The notes below the pieces were generated by a model. That model was not told where the DNA came from, made no database searches, and worked only from the letters and a program-made list of their open reading frames with translations. A stretch of DNA of 64,000 nucleotides. It comes from Hypericibacter terrae (lineage in GTDB: Bacteria; Pseudomonadota; Alphaproteobacteria; Dongiales; Dongiaceae). How positions within the stretch are numbered: the first letter of the stretch is position 1; every line of letters starts with the position of its first letter. Both the position numbers and the translations under genes were made by a program. The stretch covers positions 1,550,001 to 1,614,000 of the forward strand of contig NZ_CP042906.1 of the NCBI RefSeq assembly GCF_008728855.1. Reading direction: 5' to 3'. This document shows, one piece after another, positions 5,899 to 17,111 of this stretch.

Positions 5899-6276
5899 TT
5901 AATAACCCCCATGGAGGCCGAAATTCGCAGAATCCTCTCCCCTCCTGAGCTTTCGCCCGAAAGACGCTCTGTAGGGATTTGATCCGCCGCCAGATATTGG
6001 GGCCCAACCGCACTGGCGTCCCAACATATTGATCGCGGAGTCATGAGTTTGCAACCACATTCTGTGGCCGGTTTTTCGACAAAACACTAAATGTAGTGCA
6101 TCGCAATAGGCCTAGTGGGTGCCGTATGGCGGTTTTCCGCGCCTTATGGTTAAGGAATGATGAACTCATGCTGCACTGCAGCAATGGCCATCATCGGGCA
6201 CTCCGGGTCGTGCCTCCGCGAAGCCTCGATCGTCGGCGTTGCGGACTCGACCGGGGCGCGTTTTCGCCCGTCATTT
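5899..6276. other. Intergenic region upstream of nrdJ
   Basis: This gap of 378 bases separates the nrdJ start from the 3' end of the FAD oxidoreductase gene. It holds the NrdR-type box described separately and, 30 bases from it, a 13-base palindrome CCACA-TTC-TGTGG (6055-6067). I looked for a cobalamin riboswitch B12-box here and did not see one. No convincing terminator for the oxidoreductase operon was seen. Confidence 0.5.
6084..6099. promoter_or_regulatory. Putative NrdR box
   Basis: ACACTAAATGTAGTGC has perfect CACTA/TAGTG arms and fits the known NrdR operator pattern (roughly acaCwAtATwTwGtgt). NrdR normally binds two boxes separated by whole helical turns. Candidate partners are a degenerate site at 6103-6118 (GCAATAGGCCTAGTGG) and the palindrome at 6055-6067, whose centre lies about 30 bases away. 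The location upstream of nrdJ fits repression by NrdR, the nucleotide-sensing regulator of ribonucleotide reductase genes. Confidence 0.6.
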
Positions 6277-7575
6277 TCAGTGGGCGAGCCGGTCCTTGAG
6301 GTCGAACCAGGCCATGGCGAGGGGCACGAACCAGGCCTCGCCGCGGTGGTAGAAGCGAGTCGGGAAGGGCAGGTCGTCGAAGGCCGTCGCGGCGTCGGCT
6401 GCGCCCAGGATCCGGCGGGCCAGTTTGAGGCCGAGCCAGCTCCCCATCGGGATGCCCATATAGTTATAGCCCAGCGCGTAATGCACCCGGTCCTTCCGGC
6501 CGATATGCGGCAGGACATCGAAGCTGGCGGCGCAGCGCCCGGTCCAGGCATGGCTGATCCGGGTCCCGGCCAGATCGGGAAAGAGCCGAACCAGCCGGCG
6601 GTGCAGGACCGCCGCCTTGGCCTTGAGATCGCGCGCGGGCCCGCCGGTGCGCCCGCCGAATAGCAGGCGCGAGCGGTCGGGCGAGAGCCGCAGGAAATCG
6701 ATGTTCATCCGGTAGTCCTCGACGATGCGAGGGTTGGGCAGGATCCGGGCCAGGCGCTCGGGCGCCAGCGGCTCGGTCGCAATCATGAAGCCGTGGAACG
6801 GCACCACCCGCCGCCGCAGTGCCGGGGTGAGGGCGCCGGTATAGCCGTTGGTGGCGATGACGACGTCGCGCGCCGCGATGCCGCCCCGCGTCGTCTGCAG
6901 GGTCACCTTGTCGGGCCAGAAATCGAGTGAGGTCACGACGGTCAGATCATGGATTGCGACGCCCGCCGCCCGCGCGCTCGCCAGCAAGCCCTGGTGATAG
7001 AGCGCCGGGTGGATCGCGCCGCGATCGGGCCCGTAGCTGCCACCCTGATAGAGGTCGGTGCCGAGATGGAGATGCTGGCGCGATTTCGGCACCATCTCGA
7101 ATTCCTCGCCCAGATGGCGGCGCTGGATCTCGAGCTTCCGCCCGAAGGAATCGTACTGGCGCTGCGAGAAGACCGGAATGAAGCGGCCGCAGCGCTCGAG
7201 CTGGCAGTCGATCTTCTCCTCCGCGACCACGCGATAGACCTGGTCGTAGGCGGCCCAGACCTCGCCATAGAGCGTCTTGGCCCGGTCGAGCCCGACGCTG
7301 TCGATCAGGTCGGCGAAATCGGGCACCAGCGCGCGGCCGACGAAGCCGGCATTGCGCGAGCTTGCGCCCGCCCCGGTGGCTTCGGCTTCGAGCACCACCA
7401 CATGGCGTCCGGCGCGCGCCAGATTGAGGGCGGCGGTCAGGCCGGTATAGCCCGAGCCGACGACCGCCACGTCGCATTTCACCGGCAGGGGTTTCGGGCC
7501 GGGTTGTGGCCGGGGCGCGGCCTCCCACCAATAGGGTTCGGCCTTGAAGTCGGGCGCGAAGATGTCGGGGTTCAT
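6277..7575 (-). CDS. FAD-dependent amine/amino-acid oxidoreductase (DAO family, PuuB-like)
   Basis: A 432-residue protein starting MNPDIFAPDF; the open frame runs further upstream but this ATG overlaps the acyltransferase stop as ATGA, a sign of translational coupling. A dinucleotide-binding fold with VVGSGYTGLTAA sits near residue 38, followed by the second FAD contact ASSRNAGF. The C-terminal region has GRTGGPARD and HAWTGRCAAS, typical of the glycine/D-amino-acid oxidase family and of gamma-glutamylputrescine oxidase. It probably oxidises a secondary or primary amine to an imine, releasing hydrogen peroxide and ammonia. As the last gene of the ABC importer/M20 hydrolase operon it likely acts on the imported or hydrolysed compound. 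The substrate is inferred only. Confidence 0.85.
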   Translation of the reverse strand: MNPDIFAPDFKAEPYWWEAAPRPQPGPKPLPVKCDVAVVGSGYTGLTAALNLARAGRHVVVLEAEATGAGASSRNAGFVGRALVPDFADLIDSVGLDRAKTLYGEVWAAYDQVYRVVAEEKIDCQLERCGRFIPVFSQRQYDSFGRKLEIQRRHLGEEFEMVPKSRQHLHLGTDLYQGGSYGPDRGAIHPALYHQGLLASARAAGVAIHDLTVVTSLDFWPDKVTLQTTRGGIAARDVVIATNGYTGALTPALRRRVVPFHGFMIATEPLAPERLARILPNPRIVEDYRMNIDFLRLSPDRSRLLFGGRTGGPARDLKAKAAVLHRRLVRLFPDLAGTRISHAWTGRCAASFDVLPHIGRKDRVHYALGYNYMGIPMGSWLGLKLARRILGAADAATAFDDLPFPTRFYHRGEAWFVPLAMAWFDLKDRLAH

Positions 7576-8809: not shown

Positions 8810-10438
8810 TCAGGCGCCCTGCGGAATCCACCATTCCTCGCCGCGCGGCGTCGACACATATTCCGGCCAGCGATAATGAATCGGTGCCGGGAAGTTGCGC
8901 GGCAGGAGAGGCGGTACCCATTGCGAGCCTCCGACCCCGCCGCCGGTGCGTTCACGGAACTCGGCCTGCGCCGCCGCGACGGATTGGGGGTCGCTCAGAA
9001 GATCCACCAGCGTCCCGCCGATCGCGCGCGCCGCGCTGAAGATGGTCGGATCGATCGTGGCGGGATAGCCGCCCATCGCGTTCCAGACCCAGTTCGGATA
9101 CTGATAGCCCGGCTTCGGCGAGGCCAGCATCGCGCGTCCCACATAGAGGCGCGAGGTCGGACAATGCCAAGTGTAATCGGTGTAATCGTCCGAGGTGTAG
9201 TTCTTCTGCCAGGGCGGCAGGATCGCGCGCATGCGGGCCTCGTCCTCCTCCGGATCGACCAGCGCCGACATGGCCGGATGCATCGGTTCGGCCATCGGCG
9301 ACAGTCCCAGATTGCGCTGGATCTCGCGGCCGAACTTCTTGGCCTCCTCGCCCCATTGCGGCGCGCCCGCCAGCATCAGGTTGGCATAGGTCAGGGTCGT
9401 GATCGCATGGTTGGGCAGGCCCGGCCGCGTCTTGGTCACCCACTCCTTGCGCACGGTGCAATGGGTGATCTGCGCCACATGATCGGCATTGTTGTCGAGG
9501 ATGGCGTAGATCCGCTCCTGCATCTCCAGTGTGGGACAGCGGCTGGCATATTGGATCTGGCTGAAGTTGGGGGCGAGATTGTCGGCGGTCGCTTGTCCCG
9601 CCGCGAGGATCGCCTCGTTGATGGTCCAGGTGCCGGTATGCGGCAGCATCGCCTCCTTGGTCATCTTGCTCGTCATGTACATGAGACAGACGGCATCGAT
9701 TGCGCCGGGGGCCCGCGCCGAGGTATGGGCCGAGGCGCCTTCGTTCAGGCCCATGCCGTTCCATTCCTCGGGATGCGGGCATTCGAAGCTGTACATCCGG
9801 CTCCAGTAGGAGCCGCAATGGGTGTTCCAGTTGACGGTGTTGGCGTGGGAGGTGGTGAAGGCGGGGTGGAAGCTCACCGCGGCGTCGAGCTGGTCGTAAT
9901 AGCCATGCGCGGCGTGCACGGGCTTCGAGCCGCAGACCTTCTCCGCGGGCTCGCCGAAGAAGACCAGCGTGCCGGCGAGATTATGCTTCTGCATGGCTGC
10001 CTTTGCGGCCAGCAGCCCGCCCAGCGCTCCGATGCCGAGTGCGGAATGCGGGTCGGTATGGCCGGCGGCATAGCGATGGACGCCGTCGCGCGGCTTCTCG
10101 TAGGGGACCGGATCCTGACTGTTGGCCGGCACCGCGTCATACTCGGCGTAGGTGGCGATCACCGGCTTGCCCTTGCCGAAGGTGGCGCGGAACGCCGTCG
10201 GCATGGTGGCGGTGCCTTCCTCGACATCGAAGCCCTGCTCGCGCAGCAGCTTCACATACCAGGCGGCGGACTTGTATTCGCGCCAGGCGGTCTCGTGGAA
10301 GTTCCAAACCTCGGTGTGGCGCTTCGAGAGCCAGCCCTCATGTGCCTTCACCCAGTCGAACGCGGTCTGCTTGGCCATGGTCATGGCCGCTGGGCTCCAG
10401 GACCGCGCTGCGGTCTGGCTCGGACGATCATCGGGCAT
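8810..10438 (-). CDS. M20 family metallo-amidohydrolase (AbgB-like)
   Basis: The 542 residues resemble subunit B of p-aminobenzoyl-glutamate hydrolase and related M20D amidohydrolases. Visible are AGHTDPHSALG, where the family usually has its first metal ligands (CGH...), FFGEPAEK in place of the usual GTPAEE with the catalytic glutamate, and late histidines. The start at 10438 has GAGGAG six bases upstream; MTMAK at 10384 is an alternative without such a site. Family members cleave N-acyl or peptide-like amide bonds of amino-acid conjugates. The gene lies directly downstream of two ABC permeases, so it likely hydrolyses the imported conjugate in the cytoplasm. No signal peptide is visible. 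Confidence 0.85.
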   Translation of the reverse strand: MPDDRPSQTAARSWSPAAMTMAKQTAFDWVKAHEGWLSKRHTEVWNFHETAWREYKSAAWYVKLLREQGFDVEEGTATMPTAFRATFGKGKPVIATYAEYDAVPANSQDPVPYEKPRDGVHRYAAGHTDPHSALGIGALGGLLAAKAAMQKHNLAGTLVFFGEPAEKVCGSKPVHAAHGYYDQLDAAVSFHPAFTTSHANTVNWNTHCGSYWSRMYSFECPHPEEWNGMGLNEGASAHTSARAPGAIDAVCLMYMTSKMTKEAMLPHTGTWTINEAILAAGQATADNLAPNFSQIQYASRCPTLEMQERIYAILDNNADHVAQITHCTVRKEWVTKTRPGLPNHAITTLTYANLMLAGAPQWGEEAKKFGREIQRNLGLSPMAEPMHPAMSALVDPEEDEARMRAILPPWQKNYTSDDYTDYTWHCPTSRLYVGRAMLASPKPGYQYPNWVWNAMGGYPATIDPTIFSAARAIGGTLVDLLSDPQSVAAAQAEFRERTGGGVGGSQWVPPLLPRNFPAPIHYRWPEYVSTPRGEEWWIPQGA

Positions 10439-10469: not shown

Positions 10470-11288
10470 TCAGGCCGCGCCTTCGGCCTGGGATTGCGCC
10501 CGCAAGCGCCGGGCCCGCAGCCACATCTGCGAGCCGATGACCAGGATGGTCAGGAAGATCAGCGTCGTCGCGCAAGCGGCGATGGTCGGATCGGCCTGGT
10601 CGCGGATGCCGCTCCACATGCGCCGCGGCAAGGTAAAGATGTTGAGCTTGGAGATGAAGAGCGTCACCACGATCTCATCCCAGGACGAGATGAAGGCGAA
10701 GACGGCACCGGCCAGGACGCCGGGCGCGATGCAGGGCAGGATCACCATCCGCAAAGTCTGCCTCATGTCGGCGCCCAGATTGCGCGCGGCCTGCTCGAGC
10801 CGGAGATCGAAATTGGCGAGCGAGGTCGAGACGGTGATCACGACATAAGGCACCGCCAGCACCGCATGGGCCATGATGACGCCCGGATAGCTGTCGAGCA
10901 GCCCGAGATCGACGAAGATGCGGTAGAAGGCGAGGGCCGACACGATCGAGGGAATGATGATCGGCAGCAGCACGAACCCCCGCACCAATTCGGACCAGCG
11001 GCTGGCAATGCGCCAGAGCCCGACCGCGCAGAGCGTGCCGAGGCTGGTGGCGATCACGGTCGAGACGACGGCGATGACGAGGCTCTGCCAGATGCTTGAG
11101 GTCCAATCCGGATTCGTGAACAGGTTCTCGTAATTGCGCAGGCTCACGCCGTCTTTCGGCAACGTCAGGAATCGGTCGGGGGTCAGCGAGATCGGCGCGG
11201 AAACGAAGATCGGCACCAGCAGGAACAGCAATACGACCCAGGCGCCCGCCAGCACGATCCTGAAGCGCCAGCCATAGCCCTCGCTCAT
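10470..11288 (-). CDS. ABC importer permease, PotC-like
   Basis: A 272-residue inner-membrane permease with about six helices. The typical binding-protein-dependent permease loop lies near residue 190 (EQAARNLGADMRQTLRMVILP), which docks on the ATPase. It resembles PotC of the spermidine/putrescine family. It starts 13 bases after the stop of the other permease and shares the operon with the solute-binding protein. The importer probably takes up a polyamine-like, opine-like or guanidino compound. Confidence 0.9.
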   Translation of the reverse strand: MSEGYGWRFRIVLAGAWVVLLFLLVPIFVSAPISLTPDRFLTLPKDGVSLRNYENLFTNPDWTSSIWQSLVIAVVSTVIATSLGTLCAVGLWRIASRWSELVRGFVLLPIIIPSIVSALAFYRIFVDLGLLDSYPGVIMAHAVLAVPYVVITVSTSLANFDLRLEQAARNLGADMRQTLRMVILPCIAPGVLAGAVFAFISSWDEIVVTLFISKLNIFTLPRRMWSGIRDQADPTIAACATTLIFLTILVIGSQMWLRARRLRAQSQAEGAA

Positions 11289-11301: not shown

Positions 11302-12189
11302 TCACTTGGCCCCGAACATGGTGCGCAGATCGACGATGCGCGACATCACGGCGAAGACCAGGAATACCAGCACCAGCAGCACCATGGCCAGCATGGAGCC
11401 GACACCCCACCGCACGGTTTGCAGGATCTGGACGCTGACATATTCGGCGATCATCAGGGTCTTGCCGCCGCCGAGGATCGAGGGCGTGACGAAGAATCCC
11501 AGCGTCAGGATGAAGACCAGGAGCCCGGCGCCGGCGATGCCGGGGAGGCTCAAGGGGAGATAAACGCGCCAGAAGGATTCGAACGGGCCGGCGCCCAGCC
11601 CGCGCGCGGCGCTGACGAGGCGCGGATCGATGCCGCGCAGGTTGGCATAGAGCGGCAGCACCGCGTAGGGGATCATGTAATGGACCATGCCGATCAGCAC
11701 ACCCAGTTCGTTGCGCACCAGATGGATCGGCTCGGAGATGACGCCCCAGTCCAGCAGCGCGCGATTGATAATGCCGTTGTCATGCAGCAGCACGACCCAG
11801 GAGAAGGCGCGCGCCAGCACCGACACCCAGAACGGCACCAGCACGAACATGAGGATCCAGATCCGGTGCCGGTCCGTCACATGCGCCATGGCGTAGGCGA
11901 TGAGATAGCCCAGCACCAGGCTGATGCCGGTGGTGATGAAGCAGATGCGGAAGGTGTTGCCGAGCATCTTGAGGATGCCGCGGTTGGTCACGAGGCGCTC
12001 ATAGTTCTGCAGCCCGACGTCGGGGTCGGAGAAGCTGATCCAGAGCACTTGGCCGATCGGGTAGAGATAGAGAACGAGCAGGAACAGCACGAGCGGCAGG
12101 ACCAGCACCCAATAGGGATTGATCCGCGAAGGTTGTTTCCCTCGCGGATCCAGTCCTTCCAGGGCGATCGTCCCTGTGCTCGAGCTCAT
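11302..12189 (-). CDS. ABC importer permease, PotB-like
   Basis: A 295-residue inner-membrane permease. A hydrophilic N-terminus (about 25 residues) is followed by six predicted helices, the first being WVLVLPLVLFLLVLYLYPIG. The coupling-loop motif SAARGLGAGPFESFWRVYLP lies near residue 190. It belongs to the PotB/HTCT family and pairs with the PotC-like permease immediately downstream. The solute-binding protein gene precedes it by 43 bases in the same direction. Confidence 0.9.
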   Translation of the reverse strand: MSSSTGTIALEGLDPRGKQPSRINPYWVLVLPLVLFLLVLYLYPIGQVLWISFSDPDVGLQNYERLVTNRGILKMLGNTFRICFITTGISLVLGYLIAYAMAHVTDRHRIWILMFVLVPFWVSVLARAFSWVVLLHDNGIINRALLDWGVISEPIHLVRNELGVLIGMVHYMIPYAVLPLYANLRGIDPRLVSAARGLGAGPFESFWRVYLPLSLPGIAGAGLLVFILTLGFFVTPSILGGGKTLMIAEYVSVQILQTVRWGVGSMLAMVLLVLVFLVFAVMSRIVDLRTMFGAK

Positions 12190-12232: not shown

Positions 12233-13348
12233 TCAGGCCGAGATCATGTCGAGGAAGGCGTTGAGCACGTCGTCGTAATGCTTGGCGAAATACTCGGAAT
12301 CGAGCGGGATCTGCTTCTTCAGATTCTCCGCCGTGCCGGGCGTGATCGCCCTCTCGTCGGCCGACATGATGTCGTAGGTCGCCGGGTTGGCCGGGCCCTG
12401 GCCGTAACAGCGCATGACCTCGAGCTGCAGCTCCGGGGTCTGGAGGTTGGCGAGCCAGCGGTTGGCCCATTCGCGCCCCGCCGGATTGCCTTTCGGAATC
12501 ACCCAGGCGGCCGGGCAGGCGTTGCCCTGGTCGAAGGTCCAGTCGACGCGGCCCTTGGTGTCCTGCTTGATCAGCTGGCTGCGGGTCTGCCAGAGGCTGC
12601 CCATGACGACTTCGCCGTCGAGGAACATCTGCTGGCTCGACGCGCCCGAATCCCAGAACACGATATGGTCCTTGATCTTTTCGATTTTGGCCAGGCCGCG
12701 GTCGACATCGAGCGGATAGAGCTTGTCGGGGGCGACGCCGTCGGCGAGGAGTGCCGCCTCGATCGCACCGTTCATGTATTTGTACATGGTGCGCTTGCCG
12801 GGGTATTTCTCGACGTCGAAGAAATCGGCCCAGGTCGGTGCCGCCTTGCCGACCTTCTCGGTGTCCCAGGTCATGACATAGCTGTACCAGTAGCCCAGTA
12901 CGCCATAGTCATGCGTATAGGGCGCGATATAGCCGGCGCGATCGACGATCGAATAGTCGACGGCTTCGAGCTCGTTGACGCGGCCCATCCGCAGGACCGA
13001 GAAGAAGTCGGCGTCGCAGCAATCCCAGGTCACGTTCTTGGCTTCGACCATCGCCTTGATGCTGCCTTCCAGCGGCCCGGATCCGTCCACTACGACCGGC
13101 ACGCCGGTCTTCGCGGTGAAGGCCTTGCCGTAGATGTCGCCCGTGCAACGGACGGCGTCGCCGCCCCAGTTGGCATGGACGATCTGTTTGGGCTTGCCGG
13201 CGGCGAGCAGATCGCCCGACGACAAGGCCACGGCCCCGGCGCCCGCAAGCGCGCTGGCGGCAAGGAAGGTGCGGCGGCTGATCCGGCCGGCCTTCAGGTT
13301 GGCGAGCGCCACCTCGACGGAATCCTGGGCAAAACGCTGTGCAGTCAT
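12233..13348 (-). CDS. Periplasmic solute-binding protein, PotD-like, Tat-exported
   Basis: The 371-residue binding protein opens the importer operon. A twin-arginine motif (SRRTFLA) and a hydrophobic stretch (SALAGAGAVALSSG) at residues 24-45 predict Tat export. The mature part starts near KPKQIVHANWGGD, which resembles the extracellular solute-binding family 1/PotD (spermidine/putrescine) proteins. Tat export is common for binding proteins of this group. It is divergent from the triple RidA gene, with 155 bases between that would hold both promoters. The ligand cannot be read from the sequence. Confidence 0.9.
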   Translation of the reverse strand: MTAQRFAQDSVEVALANLKAGRISRRTFLAASALAGAGAVALSSGDLLAAGKPKQIVHANWGGDAVRCTGDIYGKAFTAKTGVPVVVDGSGPLEGSIKAMVEAKNVTWDCCDADFFSVLRMGRVNELEAVDYSIVDRAGYIAPYTHDYGVLGYWYSYVMTWDTEKVGKAAPTWADFFDVEKYPGKRTMYKYMNGAIEAALLADGVAPDKLYPLDVDRGLAKIEKIKDHIVFWDSGASSQQMFLDGEVVMGSLWQTRSQLIKQDTKGRVDWTFDQGNACPAAWVIPKGNPAGREWANRWLANLQTPELQLEVMRCYGQGPANPATYDIMSADERAITPGTAENLKKQIPLDSEYFAKHYDDVLNAFLDMISA

Positions 13349-13503
13349 GAGACCTCCCTAAGCATGTCGGATTATGTTTCTATGCCTCACCGAATGAGGA
13401 ATGCCGCCCGACTGCGGACTGGCTCGAATCCTATCACTCGTGAGCTCGGAACGCCAAGGGCAGCGGTCCAATTTGCCGCTCTCGACGAAAGGAATACCGG
13501 ATC

Positions 13504-14736
13504 ATGGCGCTGTCCCGTACGCATTGCTGGCCGGAAGGGCATTGGGATTGGCCGATCCATGTCTCGCACAAGCATGGCATCCGCTGCGGCGAGATGATCT
13601 TCGTGGGCGGGCAGGTCGATCTCGACAGCAGCGGCAAGGTCCAGCATGCGGGCGATCTCGCCACCCAGACCGTCACCGTCATGGCCAGCCTCGACAAGGT
13701 CCTGCGCGGTCTGGGGGCCGATCTGGGCGATCTGGTCAAGTTGATCGCGTTCTATCAGAACGACGGCAGCCGCGACGAGCAGCGATTCCTGGCCGATGTC
13801 GCACGACAATTGCCCGCCGGCGGTCCGGGGCCGGTGATCACGGCGGTGCCGCTGCCGGCCCTGGCCTATCCGGGGATGCTGGTCGAGATCGAGGCCGTGG
13901 CGATGCGGGGCGCCGACGGGCGCCGGTTGGAGCGCCAGGGCATCGCGCTGCGCGGTGCCGCCCCCTTGCCGGCGCCGCTTTCCCACGGCCTTCGTTGCGG
14001 CGAGATGATCTTCGTCGGCGGTGTCAGCGCCATCGACGAGACCGGTGCCGTGATCGCGAAGGGCGACATCGTCCGCCAGAGCCAGATCGTGATGGACCGC
14101 ATCGGCGAGGTGCTGCACGGCTTCGGCGCCGCCCATGACGATGCCGTCAAGATCAACACCTACTACGCCGGCGGGGGCCAGTTCGCCGATTGGGAAGGCG
14201 CCGCGCGCGCGCGGGCGCGCTATTTCACCGAGCCGGGGCCGGCCGCCACCGGCCTGCCGCTGCCGCGTCACGCCCTGCCGGGTCTGATGACGCGCAGCGA
14301 GATCACCGCAATGCTCGGCAGGGACGGCCGTCGCCTGCCGCGCTCCCATGTCTGGCCCGAGGGCCATTGGGACTGGCCGATCCATCTTCCCTACAAGCAT
14401 GGAATCCGCTGCGGGCCGATGATCTATCTGGGCGGTCAGGTGGCACTCACGCCCCAGGGCCAGGTGATCGAGCCGGGCGAGCTGGTGGCGCAGACCAAGA
14501 TCGCGATGGAGAATATCCGGCGCGTGCTCGCAGGGTTTGGCGCCGGGTTCGACGACGTCGTCAAGGTGACGGCCTTCTATGAAGGCGGCGCTTCGGCGGA
14601 CCAGCTGCACAAGAATCTGAGCGTGCGCTCGGCCTGCTTCACCGAGCCCGGTCCCGCCACCACGGGGATTCCGCTGCCCTTCCTCGCCTATGAGGAGATG
14701 GTGATCGAGATCGAGATCGTCGCGATGGTGGGATGA
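13504..14736 (+). CDS. Triple-domain RidA/YjgF family protein
   Basis: Three RidA-like domains lie in one 410-residue chain: about 1-138, 140-275 and 278-410. Domains 1 and 3 share a closely similar opening (WPEGHWDWPIH then KHGIRCG), so an internal duplication is evident. Each domain has the (M)IFVGG or IYLGG strand, the L..LGA/GFGA helix and the terminal EIEAVAM-type strand. RidA enzymes hydrolyse reactive enamines/imines released by PLP or amine-oxidase chemistry. The catalytic arginine of canonical RidA (in ARLPK) is replaced here: AVPLP, GLPLP and GIPLP. The protein may therefore belong to a non-canonical Rid subgroup. It lies between the importer operon and its ATPase gene, which fits detoxification of imines from the FAD oxidase. 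Confidence 0.85.
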   Translation: MALSRTHCWPEGHWDWPIHVSHKHGIRCGEMIFVGGQVDLDSSGKVQHAGDLATQTVTVMASLDKVLRGLGADLGDLVKLIAFYQNDGSRDEQRFLADVARQLPAGGPGPVITAVPLPALAYPGMLVEIEAVAMRGADGRRLERQGIALRGAAPLPAPLSHGLRCGEMIFVGGVSAIDETGAVIAKGDIVRQSQIVMDRIGEVLHGFGAAHDDAVKINTYYAGGGQFADWEGAARARARYFTEPGPAATGLPLPRHALPGLMTRSEITAMLGRDGRRLPRSHVWPEGHWDWPIHLPYKHGIRCGPMIYLGGQVALTPQGQVIEPGELVAQTKIAMENIRRVLAGFGAGFDDVVKVTAFYEGGASADQLHKNLSVRSACFTEPGPATTGIPLPFLAYEEMVIEIEIVAMVG

Positions 14737-14744
14737 AAATAATC

Positions 14745-14815
14745 CCCTCCCTCGGAACGGGGGAGGGTTAGGGAGGGGGCTGCGCGCCGTCGAATACCGA
14801 GCAGCCCCCTTCCTA
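14745..14815. repeat. GC-rich palindromic repeat, copy 1
   Basis: CCCTCCCTCGG and GGGGGAGGGTTAGGGAGGG are followed by a hairpin whose arms are AGGGAGGGGGCTGC and GCAGCCCCCTTCCT, with a 17-base loop. It follows the RidA stop within 10 bases and may aid termination, but lacks a T-run. Related sequences occur near 22.4, 43.7 and 45.9 kb. Confidence 0.7.
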
Positions 14816-14816
14816 G

Positions 14817-14992
14817 CCTTCCCCCGCGAAGCGCAGGACTGTCCGGGGAACGGACTCAAGGGATTCAAACGACTCATTTTTATTGTTCTAAGTCTCGCAC
14901 GCCCACGGATCACGTCTAATCCATATGCGCCAACACTTTGATACGATTCATGAAAACTTTCCCCGGACACTCCTGCGCGAAGCGGGGGAAGG
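14817..14992. repeat. Inverted-repeat element with 32-base arms
   Basis: The arms at 14817-14848 and 14961-14992 are near-identical in opposite orientation (CCTTCCCCCGC... and ...GCGGGGGAAGG, both carrying GTCCGGGG or its complement). They enclose about 112 bases that are clearly more AT-rich than the surroundings and have no open frame. This has the shape of a MITE or of a structured RNA with a long basal stem. It separates the RidA gene from the convergent ABC ATPase gene. Confidence 0.65.
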
Positions 14993-15009
14993 GACAGAGT
15001 GCGTCTTTA

Positions 15010-16173
15010 TCAATCGTCCGTCACCACGACGGCAGCATCGGCATCCCAGCCGAGCCAGACCTGCATCTCGTTCTTCGGCTCGAGCTTCATGCGCCAGGCG
15101 GGGCAACGCACCGCCAGCTGTCCCAGGCTCGCCGTCGCCACCGTGAAGTGGAAATCGCTGCCGAAATAGTTCCAGCTCGTGACCCGGCCCTGGGCCCGGT
15201 TGATCGCGGTCGACGGGGCGTCAGCGGCGATTGCGATCTTCTCCGGCCGCATCGCCAGCAGGACCTCGCCGCCGGCCGCCGGTATCGACGCCGCCTTCTG
15301 CCGGAAGGTCTCGCCGTTCACGGCATAGGCGAAGCCACCTTCGGCAGCCCCGCTGACCCGGCCCTTGATGAAGTTGCTTTCGCCCAGGAATCCGGCGACG
15401 AACCGCGTCGCCGGGCGTTCATAGAGGTCGGCAGGCCGGCCGATCTGCACGAACCGGCCGTCGCGCACGATGGCGATGCGGTCCGACATGGACAGCGCTT
15501 CTTCCTGATCGTGCGTCACATAGACGAAGGTGGTGCGGATGCGCTCATGGAGCTGCTTGAGCTCGATCTGGACCTCGGTGCGGAGCTTGCGGTCGAGCGC
15601 GCCCAGCGGCTCGTCGAGCAGCAGCACGTCCGGCGTGAAGACCAGCGAGCGCGCCAGCGCCACGCGCTGCTGCTGGCCGCCGGAGAGCTGGCGCGGCATC
15701 CGGTCGGCGAGGGGGGTGAGCTGCACCAGCTCCAGCGCGCGGCCGACCTCGCGCTTGATGTCCTCCGCCGGCCGGCGGCGCACCTTGAGCGGGAAGGCGA
15801 CATTGTCGAACACCGACAGATGCGGAAACAGGGCATAACCCTGGAACACCATGCCGAAATTGCGCTTTTCGGGCGGCAGATGGGTGATCGCCTTGCCGTC
15901 GAGCAGAATCTCGCCGGCCGAGGGCGTGGTGAAGCCGGCGATCATCATCAGCATCGTGGTCTTGCCCGAGCCCGAGGGCCCGAGCAGCGTCAGGAATTCG
16001 CCACGCGCGACCTCGAGGTCGACGCCGTCGACGGCGCGCACGATCCCGTAATGTTTGGAAACCCCGCGAAAGGCGAGACCGCCGGCGGCGGCCCGATGAA
16101 TCGACGTCGGATTGGTCGCAGTCGCTGTTCCCTGCACCGGCGCAGCCTTCCCCCTTGCTATCGGATCCGCCAC
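15010..16173 (-). CDS. ABC importer ATPase, PotA-like
   Basis: About 387 residues. Walker A GPSGSGKTT lies near residue 65, then the signature LSGGQQQRVALARSL, Walker B VLLLDEPLGALD and the switch histidine region VTHDQEEAL. The C-terminal TOBE-type regulatory domain includes LLAMRPEKIAI. The frame is open to an ATG at 16269, which would overlap the upstream gene. A GTG at 16173 with GAGG a few bases before it avoids that and is preferred. It is the only ATPase near the PotB/C/D-like genes and surely energises them, although RidA separates them. It is co-directional with the guanidino hydrolase gene. Confidence 0.9.
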   Translation of the reverse strand: MADPIARGKAAPVQGTATATNPTSIHRAAAGGLAFRGVSKHYGIVRAVDGVDLEVARGEFLTLLGPSGSGKTTMLMMIAGFTTPSAGEILLDGKAITHLPPEKRNFGMVFQGYALFPHLSVFDNVAFPLKVRRRPAEDIKREVGRALELVQLTPLADRMPRQLSGGQQQRVALARSLVFTPDVLLLDEPLGALDRKLRTEVQIELKQLHERIRTTFVYVTHDQEEALSMSDRIAIVRDGRFVQIGRPADLYERPATRFVAGFLGESNFIKGRVSGAAEGGFAYAVNGETFRQKAASIPAAGGEVLLAMRPEKIAIAADAPSTAINRAQGRVTSWNYFGSDFHFTVATASLGQLAVRCPAWRMKLEPKNEMQVWLGWDADAAVVVTDD

Positions 16174-16232
16174 AGCCGGGCCTCTAGCGGGCCCGTTCTC
16201 CGGCAGACCTTTCGTCCTCGGCCGGCAAGGCC

Positions 16233-17111
16233 TCAGACCGGATCGCGGCGCAGCGCCTGTGCCATGCAATGCACGCCGCCGCCGCCCATGGTGAACATGG
16301 TCATGTCCGGATCATAAACCGTAAATCCGGCGGCGCGCAGTGTCTTGTTCAGATCCTTCGACTGTGCGGTCGAAATGATCTTGTTGTCGCCTAGCGACAT
16401 CACATTGCAGCCGAGGCCCATCGTGTCGCGATAATTCACCGGGACCATCTCGATCTTTTTCGACTTCAGCCAATCGAGGACCCAGTCCTCGGTGGTGTCG
16501 GGGCAGACCGCCGCCAGCTTGGGCGCCAGCATGCAGACCATCAGGTCGATATGGACGTAATGCTCGGCGATGGGGGCGAGCTTGACCTCCCAGCCCTTCT
16601 CTTCCATCCAGCCCTTCACCTGCTGCGCCGCCGGCTCCTGGGTGCGTTCGCCGCAGAAGCCGATCAGCACGGTGTTCGGCTCGATCACGTCGAAATCGCC
16701 GCCCTCGAAGGCCGACGCCGTGATCATCTTGAAGATCGGAATGCCCTTCTTCTGGTAAAAGTTGATCACCGGGGCATATTCGCCGCGCCGCCACCACTGA
16801 TGCATCTGGGTGACGACCGCGCCGTAGGGCGTCATGAAGCTCGAATCGCGCGCATAGACCTGATAGGGCAGCGCCTCGTCGGGTTCGAGGAAATGCACCT
16901 TGGTGCCGCCTTCCTCATAGGCCTGGACCATCTCGCGATGCTGGCGCATGGCGAGCTGGCGGTCGAACTTGGCGCCGGAGCGCAAGGTCGCCTTCGAGAT
17001 CGAGCTGGTCGGCAGCCATTTGAAGTTCACCGGCTCGCAGAGCAGCACGTCGTGCAGCCGGCCATATTCCGAATTCGCACCCCAGGCCTTGCCGCCGCTT
17101 GCCGTTGTCAT
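16233..17111 (-). CDS. Guanidino-group hydrolase (DDAH/arginine deiminase superfamily)
   Basis: A 292-residue member of the amidinotransferase/dimethylarginine dimethylaminohydrolase fold. Visible are a substrate-binding ARDSSF near residue 88, FEGGDF (acidic catalytic pair) near 135, HYVHIDLMVC with the catalytic histidine, and the nucleophilic cysteine in GGGVHCMAQA near residue 282. These enzymes remove or transfer the guanidino carbon of arginine derivatives via a Cys-linked intermediate. Its neighbours, an importer ATPase downstream and a divergent LysR regulator, suggest catabolism of an imported guanidino compound. Whether it acts as deiminase, dimethylaminohydrolase or amidinotransferase cannot be decided from sequence alone. 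Confidence 0.88.
   Translation of the reverse strand: MTTASGGKAWGANSEYGRLHDVLLCEPVNFKWLPTSSISKATLRSGAKFDRQLAMRQHREMVQAYEEGGTKVHFLEPDEALPYQVYARDSSFMTPYGAVVTQMHQWWRRGEYAPVINFYQKKGIPIFKMITASAFEGGDFDVIEPNTVLIGFCGERTQEPAAQQVKGWMEEKGWEVKLAPIAEHYVHIDLMVCMLAPKLAAVCPDTTEDWVLDWLKSKKIEMVPVNYRDTMGLGCNVMSLGDNKIISTAQSKDLNKTLRAAGFTVYDPDMTMFTMGGGGVHCMAQALRRDPV

Follow-up and report, generated by a model that had tools for sequence, protein, structure and literature searches.

A conserved protein of three fused Rid domains in Hypericibacter terrae, with no equivalent of the catalytic Arg105 in any domain

The stretch of Hypericibacter terrae DNA analysed here, 64,000 nucleotides in length and hereafter called the window, contains a gene for a single chain of three fused Rid domains. 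All three domains lack an equivalent of the catalytic arginine of RidA (Arg105), and the third carries an asparagine and an arginine that are invariant in the protein family. The reading to which we lean, in the knowledge that it may well prove wrong, is that of a single-chain pseudo-trimer in which the Asn88/Arg105 carboxylate clamp has been exchanged for another polar set, most complete on one face, and which would act on a C=N or enamine-like intermediate. The gene, here called 3x-Rid, and its domains are placed in the window as follows.

13504..14736, + strand: 3x-Rid gene, three fused Rid domains, 410 aa, ATG start (open reading frame, Pfam and AlphaFold model)
13519..13914, + strand: Rid domain 1 (D1), residues 6-137
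13936..14331, + strand: Rid domain 2 (D2), residues 145-276
14341..14733, + strand: Rid domain 3 (D3), residues 280-410

Three stretches of the reading frame match PF01042 (whole-protein E-value 1.7e-44; bit score 151.1, cut-off 27.3), which places the product in the Rid/YjgF/YER057c/UK114 superfamily and bears out the first-pass annotation of this DNA in its view of three RidA domains in one chain. Pairwise identities within the protein are 50% for D1 and D3, 45% for D2 and D3 and 37% for D1 and D2. Tandem triple Rid proteins have already been named 3x-RidA and presumed to be covalently linked trimer units (Niehaus et al. 2015, PMC4433059); the 410-aa protein has the same tandem of three fused domains and is likened by description to these proteins, of which EF_0115 is an example, so that the architecture is not new. 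Niehaus et al. class the 3x-RidA proteins within the RidA subfamily, whereas the family of the window protein lacks Arg105 in every domain and has Asn371 and Arg375 invariant.

Full-length homologues of 3x-Rid were found in other genomes at 90, 67, 65, 53 and 52% identity. Matches with an E-value of 1e-25 or better occurred in 17 of the 385 genomes of the class, some of them belonging to other triple lineages. When named genomes were scanned, 127 loci were confirmed and 80 of them kept, all matching nearly the whole query; the groups named in their record titles are Alpha- and Gammaproteobacteria, Binatia and a small number of others. In 79 of these 80 loci the frame is open over 390-440 aa, and the remaining one (L108) contains an ambiguous base. 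Given the full-length homologues and the intact frames, the gene is a conserved one and not a chance reading frame: it is real, and it is a variant of an already described architecture. The family alignment used below has 80 members, namely 79 of the 80 kept loci (L108 omitted) and the window protein. Three records, NZ_CP115763, AP024662 and NZ_CP109789, had reached 85-89% query coverage in three pieces with tblastn; they were rejected as triples, being single-domain Rid genes matched three times. No match to a sigma-70 promoter or an intrinsic terminator was found within positions 13200-15100 of the window.

An AlphaFold2 model built from 61 aligned sequences (mean pLDDT 96.5, pTM 0.94) shows a predicted trimer-type Rid fold, with linkers of nine residues leading from the last strand of one domain to the first strand of the next. 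Structural neighbours of the model were ranked by Foldseek and VIA-align. Regarding the top whole-chain matches, all were chorismatases (Z 28.4-28.5, 291-294 residues aligned, rmsd 2.8-3.1, identity 14-15%); with chain 5a3k_B, residues 28-408 were matched at a Z of 28.5, with 294 aligned residues, an rmsd of 3.0 and an identity of 14%. FBXO22 chains also match the whole chain (Z 14-16, 5-7% identity), cyanuric acid hydrolases (AtzD and relatives) fit it loosely (Z ~11, rmsd 5.5-5.7, identity 9-12%), and RidA monomers fit a single domain (Z ~11-12, rmsd mostly 1.7-2.6). The model thus has the single-chain, Rid-like fold of the chorismatases 5a3k, 5ag3 and 4bps, which we take to be FkbO/Hyg5 proteins, but at the low identity given above its sequence gives no sign of chorismatase function in the Pfam and NCBIfam scans, which listed Rid-type models only. 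As a model, the covalent pseudo-trimer of the Rid fold is well supported; the earlier suggestion that one polypeptide could form such a pseudo-trimer agrees with the prediction.

In TdcF of E. coli the cleft holds seven conserved residues, Tyr17, Gly31, Asn56, Asn88, Arg105, Pro114 and Glu120; a pair of hydrogen bonds from Asn88 may orient Arg105, and Glu120 reaches over the subunit interface to bond with residue 107 (PMC1884159). Alignments with PDB sequences place Arg105 at the R of a PARS motif, seven residues ahead of the R of ARLPK. The positions of the window protein that correspond to Arg105 and Glu120, together with two further positions of D3, are the following.

13837..13839, + strand: Ile112, Arg105 equivalent of D1, Arg in 0 of 80 members
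14245..14247, + strand: Ala248, Arg105 equivalent of D2, Arg in 0 of 80 members
14659..14661, + strand: Thr386, Arg105 equivalent of D3, Thr in 57 and Ser in 23 of 80 members
13885..13887, + strand: Glu128, Glu120 equivalent of D1, kept in 79/80
14293..14295, + strand: Arg264, Glu120 position of D2, Lys or Arg in 67/80
14707..14709, + strand: Glu402, Glu120 equivalent of D3, kept in 78/80
14614..14616, + strand: Asn371 in D3, RidA position 87, invariant (80/80)
14626..14628, + strand: Arg375 in D3, RidA position 91, candidate relocated pocket arginine, invariant (80/80)

Arg105 is absent from all 240 sites of the 80 aligned family proteins, and 3x-Rid therefore lacks the pocket arginine by which the RidA subfamily is recognised. 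The first-pass annotation had reported the catalytic arginine as replaced in all three domains; this stands in that an Arg105 equivalent occurs nowhere in the protein, whereas the motif it compared, ARLPK, was the wrong one and is rejected as the catalytic motif, since Arg105, with the role described for TdcF (PMC1884159), sits in PARS. The prolines of VPLP, LPLP and IPLP that were cited in that context sit a few residues beyond the Arg105-equivalent positions. Other pocket residues have changed as well: the Asn88 equivalents are A97, A234 and L372, and Pro114 is replaced by Ala in D1, D2 and D3. The Gly-Gln pairs of the clefts of D1 and D3 are kept in 79-80 of 80 members. Each of the three domains has a lysine (K79, K216, K354) and a threonine (T113, T249, T387) at corresponding positions; those of D1 are kept in only 46/80 and 32/80, respectively. 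To judge by these residues the three sites have diverged and appear non-equivalent, in line with the earlier expectation of three different active sites. The sections of Niehaus et al. (PMC4433059) considered here contain no residue analysis of 3x-RidA, and in the portions of the literature covered neither the absence of Arg105 throughout the family nor the invariant Asn and Arg of D3 nor the asymmetry of the three sites seems to have been described. Groups Rid4 to Rid7 also lack Arg105 and keep Glu120, and the same sections give no function for them (PMC4433059). Compared by residues alone, the window protein lacks Arg105 in all three domains and has Glu120 in D1 and D3 and a basic residue at this position in D2; unlike these groups, it carries three diverged domains in one chain.

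Asn371 and Arg375 lie on the helix of D3 that matches the Asn88-bearing helix of RidA, Arg375 being one helix turn from the Asn88 position. At position 91 of D2 the window protein has Arg237, and the family has Arg in 43 and Cys in 31 of 80 members; in D1 this position is Ala or Gly in 73/80 and Arg in 6/80. The possibility that a pocket arginine is supplied from another place, which the first-pass annotation named as evidence against its own claim, may be realised by Arg375, provided that this residue is oriented towards the pocket, as we infer from the sequence.

Rid domains outside the family were sampled from 40 genomes of the phylum, taking 90 of 123 matches (the 30 best-scoring and 60 chosen by hand). 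Domains were obtained from 88 of the 90 loci and 12 more were added from earlier loci, giving 100, which were cut to 98 by removing a duplicate gene (L011 = L202) and L027, probably a piece of a triple gene. (Note that this sample is non-random, contains related members and may include domains from longer proteins, which leaves the Fisher value purely descriptive.) Among the 98 domains Arg91 was found in none of the 58 with Arg105 and in 19 of the 40 without it; Arg or Lys occupied position 91 in 23 of these 40 and neither in 17. Asn88 was present in 56/58 domains with Arg105 versus 1/40 without. On a tree computed with these columns masked (103 sequences, still including the duplicate removed later), parsimony counted approximately seven changes in Arg105 status and approximately eight in the basic character of position 91. 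Because the sample is biased and related, and because 17/40 have no basic residue at position 91, the exchange of Arg105 for Arg91 is a pattern and not proof, and it does not appear to be a rule for all Arg105-less Rid proteins.

A somewhat unlikely alternative is that the protein is a non-catalytic Rid, serving as scaffold, ligand sensor or enzyme partner, in which the loss of Arg105 ended catalysis and the fusion fixed the trimer. The Arg105-less Rid proteins assayed to date in the reports considered, including Y3550, had no deaminase activity (PMC8113886; PMC7221256), and none of the three domains of the window protein retains Arg105, Asn88 or Pro114. However, the conservation of E128 (79/80), E402 (78/80), the Gly-Gln pairs (79-80/80) and N371 and R375 (80/80) is more than a scaffold should need, and there are catabolic enzymes among the neighbouring genes.

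Under the favoured reading, that of a catalytic pseudo-trimer with an exchanged polar set, the arrangement of the three clefts can be proposed from AtRidA, in which units are joined by the contacts Lys136-Glu182, Glu182-Ser166 and those of Ser80 and Ser92 with the backbone at Ser162 and Arg165 (PMC4960622). We take these contacts to mean that a unit packs against the Arg face of an adjacent one through its N-terminal part and its C-terminal Glu face; with linkers of nine residues, the Glu face of each domain would then meet the Arg face of the preceding domain. The cleft between D3 and D1 (Asn371, Arg375 and Thr386-Thr387-Gly388 with His22, Gly36-Gln37 and Glu128) would be the best kept and the main active site. 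That between D2 and D3 (Arg237 or Cys and Thr249-Gly250 with Tyr297 and Glu402) would form a second, variable site. The cleft between D1 and D2 (Ala100 and Ile112 with Arg264) has neither Arg nor Glu at the matching places and would be dead and structural. This scheme of pairing has the appeal that the missing Arg and the missing Glu end up in one and the same cleft; both the domain-to-domain pairing and the pointing of R375 into the cleft are presumptive.

A more specific proposal, possible and more doubtful, is that Arg105-less Rid proteins rebuild the pocket through an arginine at helix position 91, and that the triple fusion keeps one full site (D3 facing D1, with Asn371, Arg375 and Glu128), weakens the second and retires the third. 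If this is true, 3x-Rid proteins are asymmetric one-site enzymes, and some of the Rid proteins that lack Arg105 and count as 'inactive' would be expected to work on other substrates; were the residue swap functional, loss of Arg105 would no longer imply loss of catalysis. The occurrence of Arg91 only without Arg105, the asymmetric trimer and the linkage to M20, DDAH-like and amidase genes suggest concrete mutants and candidate substrates.

The genes that surround 3x-Rid in the window are listed below.

8810..10438, - strand: M20-family amidohydrolase
10470..11288, - strand: PotC-like ABC permease
11302..12189, - strand: PotB-like ABC permease
12233..13348, - strand: ABC transporter solute-binding protein (SBP_bac_8), divergent from the 3x-Rid gene
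15010..16269, - strand: PotA-like ABC ATPase, N-terminal start uncertain
16233..17111, - strand: DDAH/arginine-deiminase-like amidinohydrolase with EGGD, HID and GGGGVHC motifs, below the NCBIfam equivalog cut-offs

The three motifs of the DDAH-like protein are presumably catalytic. The M20, 3x-Rid and DDAH-like genes are grouped in H. terrae and likewise in the three genomes whose 3x-Rid homologues are the closest. A DDAH-like gene lies within the analysed flanks of 6 of the 80 loci, two of which belong to these close relatives, and an arginase-family cluster near 5 of the 80. A cluster identified as amidase was found near 9/80 loci at a median gap of 83 bp. Neighbouring open reading frames were scanned at 58 non-redundant loci, which gave 48 upstream and 50 downstream frames; 40 and 42 of these were scanned, the rest being overlapping frames, and some of those scanned may not be genes. 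Amidases accounted for 6/42 downstream same-strand frames versus 1/40 upstream frames (the whole H. terrae genome of 5.9 Mb has 19 amidase matches), and FAD-dependent oxidoreductases of the DAO family for 3/40 upstream and 1/42 downstream frames. Argininosuccinate synthase, RlmN-type enzymes and other neighbours look unrelated. At most of the 80 loci none of the partner genes of the window recurs, and a fixed operon partner across the family was sought and not found; the M20, transporter and DDAH-like genes occur together only in close relatives.

In part, then, the neighbouring genes point to the breakdown of amide, guanidino and amine compounds. 3x-Rid may belong to a route by which an amide- or guanidino-type compound is taken up and degraded, together with the M20 amidohydrolase, the DDAH-like enzyme and the polyamine-type ABC importer. 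Linked hydrolases or oxidases would release a nitrogen intermediate (C=N, enamine or related), whose hydrolysis 3x-Rid would speed. As an analogue we take RutC of the Rut pathway, a 3-aminoacrylate deaminase (PMC8113886); the hydrolysis of an unstable nitrogen intermediate that we propose on this basis is the weakest step of the proposal. The task of 3x-Rid is probably related to, but different from, classical Rid chemistry and lies in nitrogen-compound breakdown.

The region between the convergent 3x-Rid and ATPase genes contains two repeats. An intergenic hairpin at 14758-14826 of the window has 29-nt arms that are 86% complementary and carries GGGAGGGTTAGGGAGGGGG; with at most one mismatch this sequence occurs 103 times in the genome, against one occurrence of a reversed control, and belongs to a REP-like repeat family. 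An inverted repeat at 14817-14850 / 14959-14992 has 34-nt arms, 88% complementary and 108 nt apart. In a close relative (L075, 67% identity) a gene for a Rieske-type ring-hydroxylating oxygenase (5997-7061) lies between the 3x-Rid and ATPase genes.

The amidase-type neighbours, together with the whole-chain fits to chorismatases (Z 28.4-28.5) and to AtzD relatives (Z ~11) and the repetition of K79/K216/K354 and T113/T249/T387 across the domains, could also be read as signs of a hydrolase of different chemistry, comparable to chorismatase or to the cyclic amide hydrolases of the Toblerone fold, a reading we consider distinctly unlikely. AtzD has indeed been proposed to consist of three YjgF-type monomers joined end to end, with a chemistry that is new (PMC3758960); it differs from the window protein, however, in having four-strand instead of six-strand units, superposes loosely and uses central Ser-Lys dyads as its active site (PMC3758960). 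Identity is low throughout (14-15% to chorismatase, 9-12% to cyclic amide hydrolases), and the recurring Lys and Thr fall at ordinary interface positions of the RidA trimer, those of Lys136 and Ser166 of AtRidA (PMC4960622), besides being kept in D1 in only 46/80 and 32/80 members. The least probable of the readings weighed here, an ordinary imine or enamine deaminase that tolerates the loss of Arg105 because its substrate has no carboxylate at that place, draws on the Glu120 equivalents of two domains and on the adjacent DAO-family oxidoreductases, which are able to make imines, but it leaves unexplained both the invariant N371 and R375 and the finding of Arg91 only where Arg105 is gone.

Domain trees were computed from 22 family members and the window protein. 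D1, D2 and D3 formed three main groups, and the domains of paralogous triples fell among D1 and D2, so that the triplication predates the spread of the family. In both domain trees D3 was nearest to D2, with a support of 0.92 that dropped to 0.47 with more sequences. D1 and D3 had been described as clear duplicates; they are the most alike pair, at 50% identity, but neither tree joins them as sisters, support being uneven for so short a domain, and the earlier wording was too strong.

Further three-domain Rid proteins, for which a search had been recommended, were found in several lineages. These other triples (L040, L042, L007 with L038, and the L025/L036 group) were placed elsewhere in the trees, several branches being weak, and their scattered placement suggests several origins for triple Rid proteins. 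Arg105 was found at none of 47 readable sites in 16 other or paralogous triple proteins. Single-domain Rid proteins encoded on Paracoccus plasmid p5 (L246) and Arthrobacter plasmid NicSoilE8-1 (L247) have Arg91, Glu120 and a WDW motif and no Arg105; they are 34-38% identical to each domain of the window protein, from which they differ in having one domain per chain and no Asn87. A single-domain Rid on a Leisingera plasmid, with Arg91 and Glu120 and without Arg105, is placed elsewhere in the tree. Apart from the Asn at position 87, which is missing from the single-domain relatives, these Arg91 proteins look like the state before fusion, as far as their residues indicate. On plasmid p5 the Rid gene overlaps an M20 metallopeptidase gene (L246, 5971-7564) beside IS66 transposase genes, and cyclase-family and cupin genes follow downstream.

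The H. terrae genome itself has 18 PF01042 matches, six of them within two triple genes; the second triple (C1:509044-510249, L022) encodes a three-domain Rid protein that is 35% identical to the window protein and also lacks Arg105. Six Rid domains in a row are encoded by adjacent, distinct triple-Rid genes at L007 (137-1381 and 1441-2697) and at L038 (1441-2682 and 2720-3994), which belong to a separate triple-Rid lineage. Two adjacent and similar triple-Rid genes (L023, 66-1286 and 1486-2706) are found on contig C8 of a relative of the same family (G002), a contig that has other Rid matches as well.
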